DNA from: an uncultured Lachnospiraceae bacterium | GTDB taxonomy: Bacteria > Bacillota > Clostridia > Lachnospirales > Lachnospiraceae | Direction of reading: 5' to 3' | Assembly (NCBI GenBank): GCA_905235745.1 | Contig: CAJOMN010000001.1 | Coordinates: 124,001-188,000, forward strand | Length of the DNA stretch: 64,000 bases | In this document: positions 53,332-64,000 of the stretch, one piece after another | How the letters are laid out: each line of letters begins with the position of its first letter | How positions within the stretch are numbered: position 1 is the stretch's first letter | Notes under the pieces: generated by a model | The model's input: the letters and a program-made list of their open reading frames with translations, nothing else | The model's database searches: none | What the model was told of the DNA's origin: nothing | Position numbers and translations under genes: made by a program

Positions 53332-54588
53332 TTAATATCCCAAAAGAGACACCGGCAGTACAAATGCATCATCGTTTAAAACCCGGATTTTTTCCGCATT
53401 ATCAATTACAACGCCCTGTTTTATAGGCATATTATACTTTGCAAGTACATTAAAGTTTTTCGTTGGTTTACTCGGTGCAATCCCTTTCTTAATCTCTACA
53501 GGATACAACGCTCCATCTTTAACCAGCAGGATATCAACTTCTTTTTTGTCGATATCTCTATAGTAGTATAAATACCGATTCGGCTCTATTCCATGATTAT
53601 AAAAACTCTTTATTACCTCACTAACCACATATGTTTCAAAGAAAGCACCGCTCATCGCACAATCCATCAACATCTGCGCATTAGGCCATTTACAGAGATA
53701 TGCGCAGAGTCCCGTATCCATAAAATACAACTTTGGTGCCTTGATAATACGTTTGGAGGCATTTGCCATATATGGTTCAAGAAGATAAATAATGCCCGAT
53801 GTCTGCAATATAGAGATCCATCGTTTGCATGTTTCAACATTTATCCCTACAGAACCGGATATTTCACTGTACACAACCTCCTGTGCTGTTCTGAATGCTA
53901 AAAGAGAGATGAATCTGCGAAACTGCATTTCACCGGAAGCGCTTATAAGCTTCCTCACATCTTTTTCAATATAAGTATCAATATATGCTTTATAATAAGT
54001 TTCCCGCTTGGATTCGCCCGTACAAATATCCGGCATTCCACCTTGAAAAATATCTTCAAACACTGAACTGCTGCTTCTGTAGAAATCCTTGTGGTCATTT
54101 TGTTTATTTAGGTAGTTCTGCAGATCAATATCAAATAATGACCCACTTATGCCGCGTTTCTCCGTCTGTGTAAAACCGGACATATTAATAACAGCTGTCC
54201 TTCCGGCAAGAGACTCCGATATTCCCTCCTGAAGTTCAAACTGGTTCGACCCCGTCAGTACAAACATCAGCCTTCTCGGCTCATTATTCTTCATCCATAT
54301 GCGTCTCTGTTGGTCAACAATTCTCTTAATCTCGCTAAGCAACCCAACTGCTTTTTGTACTTCATCGATTATCAGAGGCCATGGATGTGATTCAAAGAAA
54401 GCCTTAGGATTTGATAGCGCCATGTCCAATTCTTCCGCATCATCAAGCGTCACGGTTTCAAAGGTTTCTCCGAATAAATGATCCACAGTAGTTGATTTAC
54501 CTACCTGGCGACTCCCATATATAGTTATTACCTGAAAGGACTCTGCTGCATCAAACAGTATTTTTTCTATATCTCTGTTAATATACAT
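53332..54588 (-). CDS. AAA ATPase with DUF4143 C-terminal domain
   Basis: A 418-residue ATPase of the AAA_14/DUF4143 group. Walker A GSRQVGKST (25-33), Walker B PLIIDEVQ (72-79), and the DUF4143 part (about 220-380: RTAQEVVYSEISGSVGI, YFMDTGLCAYLCKWP and the nuclease-like DIDKKEVDILLV) are clear. These proteins are frequent in mobile and accessory regions and their role is not established. An inverted repeat TTATCCC-TTTC-GGGATAA (54597-54614) lies in front of the start and might be an operator. Confidence 0.9.
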   Translation of the reverse strand: MYINRDIEKILFDAAESFQVITIYGSRQVGKSTTVDHLFGETFETVTLDDAEELDMALSNPKAFFESHPWPLIIDEVQKAVGLLSEIKRIVDQQRRIWMKNNEPRRLMFVLTGSNQFELQEGISESLAGRTAVINMSGFTQTEKRGISGSLFDIDLQNYLNKQNDHKDFYRSSSSVFEDIFQGGMPDICTGESKRETYYKAYIDTYIEKDVRKLISASGEMQFRRFISLLAFRTAQEVVYSEISGSVGINVETCKRWISILQTSGIIYLLEPYMANASKRIIKAPKLYFMDTGLCAYLCKWPNAQMLMDCAMSGAFFETYVVSEVIKSFYNHGIEPNRYLYYYRDIDKKEVDILLVKDGALYPVEIKKGIAPSKPTKNFNVLAKYNMPIKQGVVIDNAEKIRVLNDDAFVLPVSLLGY

Positions 54589-57270: not shown

Positions 57271-57324
57271 TACTAATAGTAATACAATATGTATCATTAT
57301 ATTAATACTGTCTTGCATTGTCAA
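57271..57324 (-). promoter_or_regulatory. perfect consensus promoter and operator-like palindromes for DinJ/YafQ
   Basis: Minus-strand -35 TTGACA (57324-57319) and -10 TATAAT (57301-57296), spacing 17, match the sigma-A consensus fully. Between the -10 and the ATG lie two palindromes, ATACA-ATA-TGTAT (57282-57294) and TACTAATAGTA (57271-57281), which could be antitoxin binding sites. The promoter overlaps the 3' end of the upstream nuclease gene. Confidence 0.75.
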
Positions 57325-57685
57325 TCAGAATATCCGATATCGTTATGATCATCATATTACGAAGACGTTTCGATAAATCAAATCTATGTTTTAATTCCTT
57401 GATTGACTGATCCTGTGGTAGCCCACAACGTCTCAGATCTACGATAATATTATTTGACTGATGTGTTGCATTCTGTATATTATGTTTAATAGTGTGCTTG
57501 CCGCTTCCGGTAGGAGATTTAATTTCCCAGGGAACATTATTGATCATTATATCAGGCATCCGCAATCCTTTTATGCTTGATGGCGGAATCAATTCAACAT
57601 CAAAACCGTTCTCCATCAGCAATTTCACAGTTTCATATTCATGATTGGCTAAATGTACTCCGTTTGTCTTAAGTATTCCTTTCAT
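57302..57685 (-). CDS. stand-alone CdiA-CT-like PD-(D/E)xK nuclease
   Basis: A 127-residue protein similar to C-terminal tRNase domains of CdiA toxins. The PD-(D/E)xK active-site residues are visible as Asp45, Glu54 and Lys56 in MPDIMINNVPWEIKSPTGSG, followed by IIVDLRR, which is the expected next strand. There is no secretion module, no signal peptide and no large CdiA protein around it. No immunity gene is obvious beside it; the XRE regulator upstream might act as partner. GGAGG precedes the ATG at 57685. Standalone copies of this domain are known from mobile elements of Gram-positive bacteria, but their function is not. Confidence 0.75.
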   Translation of the reverse strand: MKGILKTNGVHLANHEYETVKLLMENGFDVELIPPSSIKGLRMPDIMINNVPWEIKSPTGSGKHTIKHNIQNATHQSNNIIVDLRRCGLPQDQSIKELKHRFDLSKRLRNMMIITISDILIDNARQY

Positions 57686-57753: not shown

Positions 57754-58020
57754 TTATAAATAAAGAGGAAGCGCCTCATCGGCGCTTCCTGTTGTAACAA
57801 CTATTTCACGAATATCCGTTATCCGGAACAATTGCATTAACCTTATCATATTGCCAAGGTCCGGAAGACTGTCACCTCGCTGCCATTTATATACAGCCTG
57901 CGTTGACTCAAAGCCCATATAAGAACTGATATCCGTGATCTTAAGACCTCTCGCCTTTCTAAGCGACTTGATCCTTGCCCCTGTAGCTACCTGATTGATT
58001 CCCATATAACATGTATCCAT
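57754..58020 (-). CDS. XRE family helix-turn-helix regulator
   Basis: An 88-residue protein with a Cro/CI-type helix-turn-helix (ARIKSLRKARGLKITDISSY, then MGFESTQAVYKWQRGDSLPD). The rest is a short C-terminal extension (ITDIREIVVTTGSADEALPL). GGAGG precedes the ATG at 58020. It ends 68 bases before the CdiA-CT-like gene, so the two may be co-transcribed and the regulator may be the antitoxin or repressor of that gene. Confidence 0.88.
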   Translation of the reverse strand: MDTCYMGINQVATGARIKSLRKARGLKITDISSYMGFESTQAVYKWQRGDSLPDLGNMIRLMQLFRITDIREIVVTTGSADEALPLYL

Positions 58021-58290: not shown

Positions 58291-59241
58291 TTACTCTAAC
58301 ACTCCGTCTGTAATGATGACTCCGGCAAAATTACCAAGGACTGTATCAATGTGAACTCTAAAAGTTAAGAACTCAACACCAGTCACGTCCAATTCAACAG
58401 GCGTAACGGCAATATTACGGCCAAACTCCATGCTATACAGTTCCTGCTCCTTGTCATCATTTGCATAGATAGTCAGCGGATATTTTTTTGTAATGGAATG
58501 ATCCTCCGGGCAACACACGTTTCCTTTGAATTTCGTGTATTCCCCGCCCAGATAATATGTTACATAACCACCTCCATAGCCATTTACTACGACAGCATCC
58601 TTTAGTTCATCTCCAAGTGAGTTATTAATGGTCTTTTCTGTTTTGCCATTATAATTTGATACGATCGTCATCTTGCTAAGATATACTGTATGATTGGCAT
58701 CTTTTGACTCGCCTATTATTTCCGAGTTTGCTTCTGACTCCGCTGCCATCGTTTTACTATCAGATTCGTTTTGCGCGGAATGATTTGCCACTTCTGATAG
58801 CTTTCTTACACTATCCTCCGCCTGTTTTTTTGCTTCATCTGCTGCTTCCGCTGCATTTTTCGACGTTTCAAGTGCCTCACTTACAGCCTTCTCAAGTTGC
58901 TCGTTTCTTTCAGTCAGCTCATTCATCTTATCCAATGTATCTGTCGAAACTGTCTGGGCTTGCGCATACATCCTTAAAGCCTTGTTAAGTGTGGCAATTG
59001 ATATGCCTAACATAGCAAGAATAACCAGAGTTACTATTGCAGGAATGATTAACACTTTCCTATTTTCCCGGATAAAGTTTATACAAGCTATTGTGCTGTA
59101 GAAAATATTAGTATTATTCACTGTCGCGTTATATACATTTGTTGTGTTTTTTTTGTCATTTGACATTTGTGTTTCAACGGCAGAAGCAATCTCATCAAAC
59201 TGATTTGATTCGTTGTTGTTTTTCATGCTCTCTTCATTCAT
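58291..59241 (-). CDS. membrane-anchored coiled-coil protein with NPCBM-like domain
   Basis: A 316-residue protein. A polar N-terminus is followed by one membrane helix (about 60-82: VLIIPAIVTLVILAMLGISI), a coiled coil (about 95-150) rich in Glu and Ala, and a beta-rich C-terminal domain of about 130 residues. That domain (YYLGGEYTKFKGNV, LTIYANDDKEQELYSMEFG, VTPVELDVTGVEFLTFRV) matches the NPCBM/NEW2 carbohydrate-binding module pattern. The protein would therefore display a carbohydrate-binding head on a stalk. The ATG at 59241 was chosen for its GGAGG site. Confidence 0.72.
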   Translation of the reverse strand: MNEESMKNNNESNQFDEIASAVETQMSNDKKNTTNVYNATVNNTNIFYSTIACINFIRENRKVLIIPAIVTLVILAMLGISIATLNKALRMYAQAQTVSTDTLDKMNELTERNEQLEKAVSEALETSKNAAEAADEAKKQAEDSVRKLSEVANHSAQNESDSKTMAAESEANSEIIGESKDANHTVYLSKMTIVSNYNGKTEKTINNSLGDELKDAVVVNGYGGGYVTYYLGGEYTKFKGNVCCPEDHSITKKYPLTIYANDDKEQELYSMEFGRNIAVTPVELDVTGVEFLTFRVHIDTVLGNFAGVIITDGVLE

Positions 59242-59260
59242 ATTTCTACCTCCAACATGC

Positions 59261-59429
59261 TTAAGAAACTTGTCTAGCCGCTGCAACCATCTCTTCGAAG
59301 GACGTCTTTACGACCTTATAAAACCTGTGACCGGCTGTAGATCCCATATTTCTTGTACAGAGCAGATAAAAACATTCCGATAAGCCCACTCTGATGAACA
59401 TTCTCGTAATCAACTAAGTATACTGCCAT
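59261..59429 (-). pseudogene. PIN/NYN-like gene remnant
   Basis: A small frame starting at 59429 reads MAVYLVDYENVHQSGLIG, typical of the beginning of PIN/NYN-like ribonuclease domains, then stops after 37 codons. The next frame down continues with YKVVKTSFEEMVAAARQVS and a stop at 59261-59263, which looks like the authentic end. A GGGGGG-type ribosome binding site precedes the start. I read it as a fossil with a large internal deletion and a frameshift. Confidence 0.45.
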
Positions 59430-59520: not shown

Positions 59521-60798
59521 TTACTTTCTTATTATACTAACAATTATGGGAATACTTACCCCTATAAGAATGACAGCAAGGACGCTCCAGTGTATAATTC
59601 CAAATGGATTCCCGTTCTTAATCCTGTCCGCAAGGCTTATGGCATCAATTAATATAGAAAATACTGCCAATACAGAGATGGCGCTTAATAACATGTTGGT
59701 TTTACGACTCTTGTAATCATTCATGTACCTTTCGACATTTTCAATTACTTCACTGATATCATCTCTTAAACTGCTGAGTTTGAACTTATCACATAACTCT
59801 TCATAGAATTTCTGATAAGATGGTTCTATAGATACCGTGTTGAACCTGTATAGAATGTCCATTTCCAAAAGATGCGGCTTCATACTGATTAGATTTTTCG
59901 TATTATTTCTGTTGTGCACTGCCTTATAGTTATCCTCAAGAAGAAGTTCTCTTTCGTGGAGAGAAAGAATATAAATACTATAATAGTCTCCTCTCACATT
60001 CCGGCAATGGATTTTTTCAAGAAAATCCTTATTATCACCATTGACATGTGCCAATGATACCACCCCATTGGGTAGTATTCCCCAAAGTTGACCGCCAAAA
60101 GAAGAAATCGTGTTTATGGATTCCTTGTCATCCCGATATGCGTTTGTATGTAAAGCTCTGCAAAGTCTGTAAATACGATTATTATCATTATCAGTTTTAT
60201 CATCCACTATTACTGAATGGTAGACTAACAACCTATTCCTGGAAGTCGACGGAAATAGTTTTAGATTCTCTTTATGTTTATCAATACACAACATATTATG
60301 TAATGACTTTTTTACAGAAAAAGTATTATCACCCGCGCAAAACACAAGATTGTTTTCTCTTAATCCGTCATCATGTTCATTAGTAAAAATATTCGAGAAA
60401 CAGAAACTAAAATCCGTGATTAAATCAATATTATCTTCCGGATACAGAACCTCGACCGAGATAAATCCCATACCGGTAGAGAAATATATCATTCTGAATT
60501 CAGACAGATAGAACCCATATTCTCCTGGGCAGGCAGGCATTTTGGAGCTAAGCTTTACCAGAGAAGTTCTATCAGGAAGACCATATTTAACGCGAGCATC
60601 CTCCTTTAAGCGATACTGCTTACATGCAGATGCCTCATTGTCGCGAAACAGCTCATATACTGCCGGTGTTAGATATTTTGTATTAATATGAATCTGTTCC
60701 CAATCAAAAACGCTAAATGGAATAGCTTTTTTTTCATCGATTTCATAATAAAACGGTAGTAGGAATCTGCTGAAACTAAGTCCTGAAGCATACTTCAA
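59521..60798 (-). CDS. hypothetical membrane protein, C-terminal two-helix anchor
   Basis: A 425-residue protein I do not recognise. The first 350 residues are soluble and without a family motif that I know; the last 60 hold two hydrophobic helices (LLSAISVLAVFSILIDAISLA and SVLAVILIGVSIPIIVSIIR), a topology like CorA-type proteins. The start is TTG at 60798, supported by a strong AAAGGAGG site 8 bases before it and the lack of any ATG for some 80 codons. It lies 18 bases after the zinc-ribbon gene and ends the operon. Confidence 0.7.
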   Translation of the reverse strand: MKYASGLSFSRFLLPFYYEIDEKKAIPFSVFDWEQIHINTKYLTPAVYELFRDNEASACKQYRLKEDARVKYGLPDRTSLVKLSSKMPACPGEYGFYLSEFRMIYFSTGMGFISVEVLYPEDNIDLITDFSFCFSNIFTNEHDDGLRENNLVFCAGDNTFSVKKSLHNMLCIDKHKENLKLFPSTSRNRLLVYHSVIVDDKTDNDNNRIYRLCRALHTNAYRDDKESINTISSFGGQLWGILPNGVVSLAHVNGDNKDFLEKIHCRNVRGDYYSIYILSLHERELLLEDNYKAVHNRNNTKNLISMKPHLLEMDILYRFNTVSIEPSYQKFYEELCDKFKLSSLRDDISEVIENVERYMNDYKSRKTNMLLSAISVLAVFSILIDAISLADRIKNGNPFGIIHWSVLAVILIGVSIPIIVSIIRK

Positions 60799-60816
60799 TT
60801 CTTACTCCTCCTTTCA

Positions 60817-61335
60817 TCAGGAGTCAATAAAACCCAAAATCAAAAAACCGCCAACAACTAACAGGTATATCCCATATATTATTCCCGATCTTCCGATATT
60901 TTTTGCATATATTACTATAGCTAGTATCGAAATAATGTGGCCTATTGCTGCAGCAGCTTTTAATTTATAAAGAATAAATGCATCTATTATGGTGTATGGT
61001 ATCGAAACGAGAAGCCAATTAATAAATGGATGCGCTCTCAAAGACTCTTCGCCCTTTACATACCAAAAATGGTTTATTGCCAGATTAACAGCCGGAAAAC
61101 AACACGCCATCACCATCAATACGCCTAAAACTCCAATGCCAACATATGACAAAAGTTTTCCATAATATTTCCCTCGTTCTGTCTTATCTATATTAACCAG
61201 GCCCACAGCCCATTCCACATCTTCATCACATATTTTTTTTACCACATCCTGGGGAATTTCTCTGGAGCAGGAGGGACAATACCTTTTAGCAATGCTATTC
61301 GAATTTCCGCATTCACAAACCCATTTCGTTATCAT
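60817..61335 (-). CDS. zinc-ribbon four-helix membrane protein
   Basis: A 172-residue protein. The N-terminus carries a four-cysteine zinc ribbon (CECGNSN and CPSCSREIP) and is followed by about four hydrophobic helices. Function is not known. GGAGG precedes the ATG at 61335. It is 13 bases downstream of the winged-helix-like gene and 18 bases upstream of the 425-residue membrane protein, so all belong to one transcript. Confidence 0.75.
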   Translation of the reverse strand: MITKWVCECGNSNSIAKRYCPSCSREIPQDVVKKICDEDVEWAVGLVNIDKTERGKYYGKLLSYVGIGVLGVLMVMACCFPAVNLAINHFWYVKGEESLRAHPFINWLLVSIPYTIIDAFILYKLKAAAAIGHIISILAIVIYAKNIGRSGIIYGIYLLVVGGFLILGFIDS

Positions 61336-61348
61336 AACGTCCTCCGCT

Positions 61349-62368
61349 TTATTGATTTATGAATTGAATTTTGGAAGGTTCTAATTCCACATCTTCTATG
61401 GATTCATCCGTGTAATTTTCAGATTCCATCCTATCAATCATGATATCCGCATTTTCATCATCTGAAGTAGTTGGAAGTATCTGATCTATTAAATCGGAAT
61501 CGATACCTTCTGTATTATTAAACAGTTCTTTTTGATTCTTCAGATACTCAAAACATTCATCGTCTCGTATAAGATATTCATGTATTCTTGCGGAATAGTC
61601 TATCTTCATCGCGTCTGATGTTGCTATTGCGATCGGTGTTATAACCTTTCCTGCGCGTCTGTTTCTTTCCGGATAATACATTATTGCAATGAATGGGTAC
61701 TGAAACCCCTTCATTTGAACAAAGAACGATCTCCTGTATCTTGTTTCCCTTGTTCGAAGATTATCGATATCATTTATGGTGTCTCCTTCATTAAAATATC
61801 CATCTTTCAGATATTGCCACAGACGTTCCTGTATTTCTCTCTCCAATTCATCATCAATCGTGACAGAGTTCCTCGGAAGAATATTGGGAGTAATGCTATC
61901 ACTAAATACTGCCATTCTTTCTTTCAATTCCTCGGCTTCATATCGTATTATTGTTCCCGTAATAGAATCAGCTTGGATTTCTCTTTTTGCGTTATATAAT
62001 GCATGTTGGAAGAGGTTCTCTATATCTACATTGTCTTCAAGTGTTTGTCGGCCTGCTTCAGTTAATTCCTTAGTTTTAGGATCAATATGTCCATACGTGA
62101 AGGCTTCTGTACGTAATATAGACCTTACCAGGCTTCGATCTATTCCAGTCAATGCACTAATTCCATTTGAGTTCGTTATTCCCGCATCAGCCAGTCTTAG
62201 TACAAGCAATTCAACGCTATCATACTCATCGATAATGTACTCTTTAACATCGGCTTCTATGATAGAGACTGGGCACATAAAACTATGAAATATTTCTATT
62301 TCATTGTTTTTTACTAATTCGGGACAGCATGTTTTAAACAGAGCAAGTTCATCCGTTTTGTTTTTCAT
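61349..62368 (-). CDS. hypothetical protein with winged-helix-like region, helicase partner
   Basis: A 339-residue soluble protein. Residues about 50-110 look like a winged helix (LLVLRLADAGITNSNGISAL, TGIDRSLVRSILRTEAF), the middle (140-210) is charged and helical, and the region about 210-270 is beta-rich with conserved-looking basic residues (RYRRSFFVQMKGFQYPFI). The C-terminus is acidic. I do not recognise a family. It starts 2 bases after the helicase gene, which implies translational coupling and stoichiometric partnership. Confidence 0.7.
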   Translation of the reverse strand: MKNKTDELALFKTCCPELVKNNEIEIFHSFMCPVSIIEADVKEYIIDEYDSVELLVLRLADAGITNSNGISALTGIDRSLVRSILRTEAFTYGHIDPKTKELTEAGRQTLEDNVDIENLFQHALYNAKREIQADSITGTIIRYEAEELKERMAVFSDSITPNILPRNSVTIDDELEREIQERLWQYLKDGYFNEGDTINDIDNLRTRETRYRRSFFVQMKGFQYPFIAIMYYPERNRRAGKVITPIAIATSDAMKIDYSARIHEYLIRDDECFEYLKNQKELFNNTEGIDSDLIDQILPTTSDDENADIMIDRMESENYTDESIEDVELEPSKIQFINQ

Positions 62369-62370
62369 TT

Positions 62371-64000
62371 CTAGACCAATCCTTTAAGAAACTCGCCGGA
62401 ATCGTAAATCTCACCTTTTCCGTTTTGTGCCTGTAATACCACTTTCCTGATAAACTCAGAGAATTTCTTCTCGCTTTGATTCGGTATTGGTTCTCCGGTA
62501 ATCTCATCAATTCTTTCATACTCACAAGATGTCAGATAATCAAAATCCCCAATTATGACAAGCTGTATCTGACATCTGGTAAATGCAACATTTAAACGTC
62601 TAAGCTCTTTTAAGAATCCCACTCGTGCTCTTGTCGGAGGAACTCTTCGCGGATCAGCACTCCTTGTGCAACTATATATTATCAACGGACGCTCCTGCCC
62701 CTGAAAACTGTCAAGCGAAGCGACTATGCTACTTACGTTCTCCGGACTATATCCGAGCTTTGCCTCTTTTATCTTCTTTCTTATAAGTCTAACCTGTTTC
62801 CCATAAGCAGAAATAATACCAACTCGAGGAGAAAACTCTCCACCTTCACTTGTTTTAAACACTTCGGAAGATATAGATTTAATTATCCTCGTTGATATAT
62901 CAGCTTCAAGTTCATTTGAATATCCTCCACCCTGTTCCGCCTTTTCAAATCTTCTGTTTTCCTTACTTGTTGATATTAGAATTAATGGAGATTCTGTTCC
63001 TTTTATAATGGGGCTCCACTTACCCATATCGTATCTCGCATGATAATTGCCGTTATAAAACCACTCCGATATAACATCCGATATATTAGAAGGCATCCGA
63101 AACTGTTCATCTAATCTCGTTAAATTGGGAGTGTTCTCATCAAGCTTCTCAAATCTAGTAAACAGGTATTCGAAGAAGCTTTCTTCTAGCAGTTTTGTTT
63201 TGATTCCGTCATCATTACATAGCTTAACTACGGTTTCATTAGCAATTGGCGGGATCTGCAGATGGTCTCCAAGCATCAATGTCTTCGGTGCCCTCGTCAT
63301 AGGAACAATTGCATTATGAATCTGAATCTGACCACTCTCATCAATGATTGAAACATCAAAATCAAGATTACTAAATTGAGATCTTGTGTTTATACCAATA
63401 CATGTTGCGCCCACAATATTCGCATTCTGAATAAGAAGATTTGTTACAATTTCAGTACGATGCTTTTGGATGGAAATCTCCCAATCGTCCAATGCTTTAT
63501 TTACTTTATCAAGTTTCTCCTTAATGGCTAATAATTTCTCTTTATACTCATCAAGCAACTCTATAGGATCTGATTCAGGATCAATCATTCCACTTGTAGT
63601 CAAATACTCCGTTGTAAAAGGCCCTTCAAGATTAACCGCAAAAGAATACTTACCACATTTATCCATCATTTCTCTGTAGTCGTTCTTGGAAGCGACATAA
63701 TCCTGCCGATTAAAAAACTTATATAGTATATCAGCTTGATTATTGTAATCTTCTACTGCTTTGATAAGATCATCTGCCTGTATACTAAGTTGATTTATGA
63801 CTGAATTAAGCTCATTTTCAATTTTTTTTGTGACGCGCTTGAAAAGAATCCTCTCGATTCCAGTTTTCTTAGACAGCGACATCTTCGATATTTCCATATG
63901 GATTTTTGAAAGATTTGTTTTCCAATATTCGGTATATCTTGTTTGGACAGCGGCTTTTAATGAGTTTACATGCTCATATCTGGTCTTTAAATCCTCCGAA
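62371..64000 (-). CDS. Upf1/DNA2-type SF1 helicase, 5' part outside the window
   Basis: C-terminal part of a superfamily 1 helicase. The frame is open to base 64000, so the Walker A domain is outside. Visible motifs: IIDESGQIQ (motif II), LGDHLQIPPI (III), LDEQFRMP (IV), VGIISAYGKQ, SLDSFQGQERPLIIYS (V) and RRLNVAFTRCQIQLVIIGD (VI). A coiled-coil insertion lies before motif II. The C-terminus is short, without a nuclease domain. Related helicases occur in RNA and DNA metabolism and in several anti-phage systems (for example Mokosh); this one is linked to a winged-helix-like and two membrane proteins. Confidence 0.88.
   Translation of the reverse strand, partial: SEDLKTRYEHVNSLKAAVQTRYTEYWKTNLSKIHMEISKMSLSKKTGIERILFKRVTKKIENELNSVINQLSIQADDLIKAVEDYNNQADILYKFFNRQDYVASKNDYREMMDKCGKYSFAVNLEGPFTTEYLTTSGMIDPESDPIELLDEYKEKLLAIKEKLDKVNKALDDWEISIQKHRTEIVTNLLIQNANIVGATCIGINTRSQFSNLDFDVSIIDESGQIQIHNAIVPMTRAPKTLMLGDHLQIPPIANETVVKLCNDDGIKTKLLEESFFEYLFTRFEKLDENTPNLTRLDEQFRMPSNISDVISEWFYNGNYHARYDMGKWSPIIKGTESPLILISTSKENRRFEKAEQGGGYSNELEADISTRIIKSISSEVFKTSEGGEFSPRVGIISAYGKQVRLIRKKIKEAKLGYSPENVSSIVASLDSFQGQERPLIIYSCTRSADPRRVPPTRARVGFLKELRRLNVAFTRCQIQLVIIGDFDYLTSCEYERIDEITGEPIPNQSEKKFSEFIRKVVLQAQNGKGEIYDSGEFLKGLV

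Follow-up and report, generated by a model that had tools for sequence, protein, structure and literature searches.

A Lachnospiraceae operon related to Mokosh I in which membrane proteins probably replace the PLD nuclease

An operon of six genes, P-K-H-W-Z-C, lies across the end of a 64,000-nucleotide stretch of DNA from an uncultured Lachnospiraceae bacterium (contig CAJOMN010000001.1, G000:C1:124001-188000; hereafter the window). The operon probably encodes an anti-phage system related to Mokosh I, in which the PLD nuclease effector would have been replaced by membrane effectors. Mokosh is a helicase-plus-nuclease system, divided into types I and II. The predicted sensor of the operon is Mokosh-like, yet the system is neither Mokosh I nor Mokosh II by their defining effector. 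The evidence is computational. It comprises the genes present and their homologies, a conserved core followed by exchanged 3' genes, the split into an active and an inactive kinase, and the absence of the putative SAM-AMP motif from the C protein of the window. The parts of the reading differ in strength. That the operon is a Mokosh-related defence system, with the defence role assigned by association, is very likely; a membrane effector step is rather likely; activation through protein-protein contact or through phosphorylation, and not by a nucleotide, has an even chance. The core genes are found again in distantly related bacteria with exchanged last genes, and the nuclease part appears to be replaced by membrane proteins. 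No account of this gene set was found in the open-licence literature searched.

Open reading frames (ORFs) confirm the four genes reported in a preliminary description of the window, with the same lengths and intergenic gaps. C (59521..60798) encodes a CorA-like protein of 425 amino acids (aa) with two C-terminal transmembrane (TM) helices, the candidate membrane effector; Z (60817..61335) a 172-aa zinc-ribbon membrane protein; W (61349..62368) a winged-helix protein of 339 aa with homology to the first ~200 residues of MkoB; H (62371..64000) a UPF1/DNA2-type SF1 helicase. All are on the minus strand, and the gaps H/W, W/Z and Z/C measure 2, 13 and 18 bases. P and K also belong to the operon: the window cuts off both, together with the 5' half of H. 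These parts reside in the adjoining stretch L002 (window position = L002 position + 59000). H runs on to L002:6475 (=65475) and measures 1034 aa in total; 542 codons (the 3' half) are in the window, the 5' 492 codons beyond its edge. K (L002:6595-7488, same strand) encodes a 297-aa Ser/Thr kinase, P (L002:7475-8797, same strand) a 440-aa pseudokinase. K and H are separate ORFs with 119 bases between them, and P overlaps K by 14 bases. The G+C content of the operon is 36.6%, that of the whole window 47.5%, in line with the A+T-rich island noted earlier. A sigma-70-like site (11 of 12) is found directly upstream of P (L002 8828-8800); such sites are no commoner in the region than in shuffles. 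Neither promoter-like sites (43, versus 37.0 in shuffles, standard deviation 6.7) nor terminator-like sites (2, versus 4.6, standard deviation 2.3) are in excess, and a split of the operon by an internal terminator or promoter was therefore rejected. Directly downstream of C resides a gene (58291-59286, minus strand) for a coiled-coil membrane protein of 331 aa that weakly matches NPCBM. It was rejected as a seventh operon gene, the best non-self match in the examined loci having an E value of 0.045.

By homology, H is a UPF1/DNA2/SMUBP2-type helicase of the MkoA family. Pfam matches (AAA_11, 3.3e-40; AAA_12, 2.1e-38), a PDB search, which retrieved DNA2, SMUBP2 and UPF1 helicases, and PADLOC models agree on the helicase type given in the preliminary description. 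The best PADLOC model is MkoA (6.5e-103), MkoC of Mokosh II scoring only 1.6e-37; no PLD domain was found in H by Pfam. The MkoB model of PADLOC matches W at 1.7e-9, over profile positions 11-198 of 610. The composition of the operon, earlier held to be unlike any known, is thus that of a Mokosh relative. The winged-helix assignment of W stands on weak but consistent matches, to PF24409 (6.3e-5, below the Pfam cut-off) and, with the family profile, to the CheF C-terminal domain (1.7e-5), which we take to be a winged helix. Matches in a PDB search with the W profile were weak or partial.

The canonical Mokosh I reference used here is L099, on a Pseudanabaena plasmid; L098 served as a second reference with fused kinase and helicase. 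L099 features a 1178-aa fused kinase-helicase (MkoA, 4.7e-216) and a 481-aa MkoB (2.2e-66), in which PLDc_2 is found at residues 345-470 (1.1e-9; positive control, same Pfam library). The W profile finds residues 32-208 of this MkoB at 2.1e-19. W is thus the counterpart of the MkoB front, with the nuclease part missing; the W protein of the window is about as long as the MkoB stretch preceding PLD. No PLD was matched by Pfam in the W of the window (E up to 1), or in the set of five separate W proteins scanned (window, L034, L044, L017, L140) out of 61. The attachments of W vary. H and W are fused into one 1397-aa protein in Mesobacillus (L030), and the 733-aa W of G573 (L140) features, by hydropathy, five C-terminal TM helices where canonical MkoB has PLD. 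HKD-like strings occur in 12 of the 61 W proteins, and were not accepted as PLD domains. Seven of these 12, from Anaerolineae (L055, L058, L061, L064, L072, L073, L074), share the string H(Y/F/A)K(I/V)PIL(E/D), which might be a PLD-type active site.

Relatives of the operon were collected by a helicase-alignment scan of a species-genome collection (92 relatives, of which the best 80, in 78 distinct loci, were kept), to which loci found earlier were added. Counts refer to 77 distinct helicase loci, the own locus included. Duplicates (L014-L018, corresponding to L032, L039, L031, L065 and L063) were dropped, and L087-L090, which have no helicase ORF over threshold, are not among the 77; a check revealed no further duplicates, and only two pairs with short identical stretches. 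W lies directly behind H, or is fused to it, in 59/77 loci, and a kinase-fold gene is found at position -1 of H in 44/77. Among H-W loci the kinase-fold gene is present in 42 of the 53 with an upstream ORF, and both P and K in 41 of the 52 with two upstream ORFs. Z is found behind the core in 11 of the 77 loci, and C also in 11; the two coexist only in the window and in clostridial L032 (=L014). The C-bearing loci are the window and L032 in Clostridia, L029 in Paenibacillus, seven in Gammaproteobacteria, and one on an Azospirillum plasmid. The 3' variants feature Z and T (a small protein described below), C, a protein with a weak DUF3800 match, or no recognised effector. The DUF3800 variant is exemplified by L017:13110-15224 (=L065), where P-K-H-W precede a 704-aa protein (0.0014). 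In two Lachnospiraceae (L034:12897-15626, L035:12860-16751) P-K-H-W are followed, as read from the sequence, by an Hsp70-like gene and a gene for a DnaJ-like or AAA protein, another possible partner set. In L019 (G309) a divergent H-W pair resides between genes that read, by sequence only, like type III-associated Csx1/Csm6 and Cas10-type proteins.

The association of C with W is far above chance. CorA-model matches (E <= 1e-10) are found in 16/391 genomes, and, assuming ~2500 genes per genome, chance would put a CorA-like gene among the first four genes after a given gene in far fewer than one of 59 loci, against the 11 observed. The conclusion holds even if kinship, as read from the helicase tree, reduces the 11 loci to about four separate occurrences. 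The tree, made by a quick method and rooted at midpoint, covers the H-W loci with helicase ORFs of 850-1300 aa, 56 of the 59, and omits L030, L038 and L061. The 10 Z loci on the tree all fall within one clade of 11 rows (SH-aLRT 99). The distribution of Z requires two gains or losses, that of C five, and loci without C stand between C-bearing ones. L020 and L021, at 61-62% helicase identity the closest relatives of the window, carry Z and T and no C; C was therefore gained on the branch of the window, or slightly earlier and then lost in the sisters.

The two kinase genes encode what appear, from their residues, to be an inactive kinase followed by an active-type one. K matches Pkinase of Pfam at 1.5e-24. 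P has no Pfam match; it weakly matches the kinase part of MkoA (1.2e-9) and the MADS kinase MAD6 (2e-12, far below the cut-off of the MAD6 model). In an alignment of 41 P-K pairs the lysine, the catalytic Asp, the Asn and the DFG Asp are all kept by K in 41/41. In the same pairs the DFG Asp is found in 0/41 P proteins, and an Asp at the catalytic position in 5/41. The front part of P varies, being a DUF4145 domain in the clostridial copy L014 and a NERD domain (Pfam) in Idiomarina. Pairs of an inactive and then an active kinase are described inside PglW and DndF (PMC12839542; PMC10853773), and a NERD domain is listed for Mokosh I in the domain table of PMC10952713.

The 172-aa Z of the window begins with the cysteine motif CxC-x10-CxxC, in agreement with the zinc ribbon noted earlier. 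All 11 distinct Z proteins have a four-cysteine knuckle, recognised by a pattern in 8 and by eye in the other 3, in which CxxC comes first. A gene resembling T, which encodes a small three-helix protein, is present in 9/11 Z loci; eight of these were used for the T profile. That the Z of the window is a Z-T fusion is still a guess, as the T profile does not find it.

By homology, C is a distant relative of the CorA effector of type III-B CRISPR systems. In the copy of the window two hydrophobic helices, predicted by hydropathy at residues 369-387 and 405-423, form the C-terminus, and the two-helix membrane protein of the preliminary description is so recovered. The PADLOC CorA models PDLC01043 and PDLC01174 match this copy at 9e-6 and 0.0084; the C of clostridial L014 (=L032) is matched by both at ~2e-62, over most of its length. 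In three genomes (L120, L121, L122) the C profile finds CorA genes (9e-46 to 2.6e-33) at a distance of 1.4-2.0 kb from a Cas10 palm domain. This profile was seeded with the C of the window and that of L014, so its CorA matches lean on the L014 copy, and the tests were repeated with either L032/L014 or the window left out. A ten-protein C profile, with the window in and L032/L014 out, aligns to the CorA proteins of L120-L122 with 96.6% probability in hhalign (E 5e-10). With the window copy left out, a profile of gammaproteobacterial and Azospirillum C proteins finds the C of the window at 1.4e-8, and one of L029 and four other CorA-like proteins finds it at 5.2e-35.

In the CorA of Bacteroides fragilis, residues R152-R153 and D219-D220 are needed for immunity and are proposed to bind SAM-AMP (PMC10600005). 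Among 16 proteins aligned, GRR and DDRM motifs, equated with these residues by inference (the B. fragilis protein is outside the alignment), are present in L120, L121, L122 and L032, as in L123 and L124, which have no Cas neighbours in view. Both motifs are missing from the C of the window and nine others; beside the window, the operon copies without them are L029, L044, L048, L069 and L013. Three of the seven gammaproteobacterial C proteins were included in this alignment. No Cas10 or Cmr genes are found among the operon genes. On a different contig of the source genome, one Cas10-palm match exceeds the Pfam cut-off (37.1 bits, 4.3e-9); since an Escherichia coli control does so too, this may be an ordinary GGDEF domain, as we infer. 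No Cas10 palm match was found in G453, the genome of L014/L032. CorA-like genes are also found beside genes for large proteins featuring an N-terminal sterile alpha motif and TPR or NACHT-like NTPase regions (L131:8850-13858; L030:2-5855), possibly another defence system with a CorA-type effector.

In the proposed mechanism H would engage abnormal, infection-specific nucleic acid, with W as a DNA/RNA-binding or coupling partner. The P-K pair may act as a gate that phosphorylates a protein of the system and so keeps the system off without infection. W would relay the signal to an effector either attached to it or encoded behind it, as the domain swaps suggest. Putative effectors are PLD in canonical Mokosh, the predicted five-helix membrane domain in G573, and Z and C in the window. 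This adaptor role of W is suggested by the PLD fused to it in Mokosh, the membrane domain fused to it in G573, and the candidate effector genes found directly behind it elsewhere. By analogy with CRISPR CorA, which is thought to depolarise the membrane (PMC11229360), C would open or disrupt the inner membrane, stopping the phage by stopping the cell, and Z may anchor or assist C at the inner membrane. Contact or phosphorylation is favoured as the trigger because the putative SAM-AMP motif is missing from the C of the window and the operon shows no synthase. A more general proposal is tentative, and we consider it somewhat doubtful: P-K-H-W would be a nucleic-acid-sensing switch with pluggable effectors at or behind W (nuclease, multi-helix domain, zinc-ribbon pair, CorA channel), and the CorA-type channel of the window would have been freed from the nucleotide, and be opened by the H-W complex or by phosphorylation.

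The candidate defence operon of the preliminary description is supported. Neighbours are conserved with the helicase, as the counts for W, Z and C indicate; profile searches of the 339- and 425-residue proteins retrieved defence models (MkoB, 1.7e-9; CorA effector, 9e-6) and no housekeeping family, so neither of the two observations named beforehand as contrary, unconserved neighbours or housekeeping matches, was found. In the flanks of relatives, 19 large genes from 14 loci were tested; seven of them, spread over 6 loci, match known defence proteins at E < 1e-80. Several points weigh against the favoured reading. The 19 flanking genes were picked by size, without matched control, and 8/14 loci gave no strong match. 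The second CorA model is weak on the C of the window, and missed it in the search of the source genome at 1e-5; a type III-like profile reaches it at no better than 0.035, its identity to the other CorA-like proteins aligned is just 12-20%, and the PDB match of the C profile to CorA is weak (E 0.14). As L020 and L021 have no C, it is not essential to the lineage. Neither Z nor C is found in 39 of the 59 H-W loci, which the effector idea leaves unexplained unless another candidate effector is present.

In one alternative, P-K-H-W is complete by itself and blocks phage directly, Z and C being a separate membrane-defence cassette or hitchhikers. It draws on these last loci, on L020 and L021, on three loci (L027, L028, L040) in which an opposite-strand gene comes next after P-K-H-W, and on CorA-like genes that occur without this core (L123, L124). 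We consider it unlikely, given that Z and C are on the same strand as W at gaps of 13 and 18 bases, that C lies behind W in 11/59 H-W loci from two phyla with CorA-model matches in only 16/391 genomes, and that W carries a fused membrane domain in G573 and a fused PLD in Mokosh. A phosphorylation toxin is quite unlikely. Here the two kinases would be toxic, as in KKP, which depends on a kinase pair plus a phosphatase (PMC11341870), with sensing or regulation left to the helicase and membrane proteins. The kinase pair is indeed conserved (41/52), the P of Idiomarina has NERD (Pfam) and, by reading only and without a Pfam match, a PP2C-like front, and an annotated PP2C gene follows a canonical-type Mokosh locus on an Agrobacterium plasmid. 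Yet P has no DFG Asp in any of the 41 pairs, no phosphatase is found among the Pfam matches of the window operon, and the constant part is H and W (59/77 loci with W, versus 44/77 with a kinase-fold gene at -1).

It is very unlikely that C is opened, in the manner of type III-B CRISPR, by a nucleotide such as SAM-AMP, with a messenger supplied by the operon or by another host gene. Apart from L032, none of the operon copies aligned, that of the window and five more, has either motif; the Pfam matches of the operon include no cyclase or polymerase domain, and G453 has no palm match. What speaks for a nucleotide is the homology of the C family to CorA effectors of Cas10 loci, the retention of GRR and DDRM in the L032/L014 copy, and the palm match over cut-off on another contig of the source genome, perhaps an ordinary GGDEF domain. 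It is highly improbable that the operon is an ordinary Mokosh I acting by nucleic-acid degradation, with a divergent nuclease hidden in W. H and W do belong to Mokosh families, but the five W proteins scanned have no PLD in a library in which canonical MkoB scores PLDc_2 at 1.1e-9, and the length of W in the window leaves it at about the part of MkoB before PLD.

The preferred reading, a Mokosh I relative with membrane effectors, can be set against known systems. Features shared with Mokosh I are the MkoA-family SF1 helicase, the Ser/Thr kinase domain, the MkoB-type winged-helix module right behind the helicase, and the NERD domain, found here in the P of Idiomarina and in the domain table of PMC10952713 for Mokosh I. 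In contrast to the kinase-helicase fusions of L099 and L098, K and H are separate here, with a pseudokinase gene in front; in contrast to the PLD nuclease of MkoB, none was found, and membrane proteins follow W. Mokosh II combines helicase and PLD in one protein (MkoC), whereas H is without PLD and better matches MkoA. C belongs to a family homologous to the type III-B CorA (B. fragilis Cmr), and shares with it the soluble N-terminal part and the two C-terminal TM helices, but its operon is without Cas10/Cmr genes, and the copy of the window is without the putative SAM-AMP motif. PglW (BREX type 2) and DndF share the order of inactive and active kinase and, in Idiomarina, NERD in front (PMC12839542, PMC10853773); here the kinases are separate polypeptides tied to a UPF1-type helicase and W, and DUF4145 is in front in the clostridial P (L014). 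KKP also features paired kinase genes in a defence setting (PMC11341870), but here one kinase is without the DFG Asp in 41/41 pairs, and the core is H and W; PP2C, the phosphatase of KKP, is not among the Pfam matches of the operon genes.

If the Mokosh sensor core also drives membrane effectors, a single sensor would have nuclease and membrane killing as interchangeable outputs, and the signal should be looked for in the adaptor W. C would then be a CorA protein of the CRISPR type that does its work independently of SAM-AMP. PMC11229360 raises the question of whether CorA families differ in the activator to which they respond, and such a protein would bear directly on it. Small swaps between close relatives, as between the window and L020 or L021, provide natural test pairs.

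The operon is sporadic. W was found in 1/99 near genomes (the source genome only). Counting the source genome, W occurs in 3/398 genomes of a phylum sample, and 8/391 genomes of a class sample have a helicase match at E <= 1e-40. Low G+C and sporadic presence fit horizontal gain. In viral contigs, a single-protein pattern search for close relatives found nothing, and the helicase alignment gave 118 pattern matches, none of which was confirmed, with no sign of phage carriage in that collection.

Flanks of the relatives were also inspected for the co-occurrence with defence genes proposed in the preliminary description, and 6 of 14 relatives reside beside BREX, restriction, LeoA or Mokosh II genes. 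BrxL and PglZ are found beside the Azospirillum operon, type IV restriction enzymes in the flanks of L024 and L069, a type III restriction enzyme in that of L025, LeoA in that of L049, and MkoC (Mokosh II) in that of L067. Partial matches link two further flanking genes (L048, L049) to OLD-like and other defence ATPases, and one (L028) to a subtilase; nine of the 19 flanking genes have no match at E <= 1e-10. Near the operon of the window, two toxin-antitoxin pairs had been described. The first is clear, and consists of YafQ (4.4e-33) and RelB (3.3e-9). The second (57302-57685 and 57754-58020, minus strand) features a 127-aa CdiA_C protein (PF18451, 5.3e-16) beside a small HTH_3 gene, and is likely, rather than demonstrably, a pair, in which a solitary CDI-type toxin domain would be used as the toxin. 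Of the gene fossils noted earlier, one 75-aa ORF has no Pfam match. Genes for DUF4143 AAA ATPases are located on both sides of the operon and toxin-antitoxin genes (53332-54588, minus strand; L002:10894-12111, minus strand), and match the PADLOC candidate PDC-S01 at 3.6e-93 and 3.1e-109.

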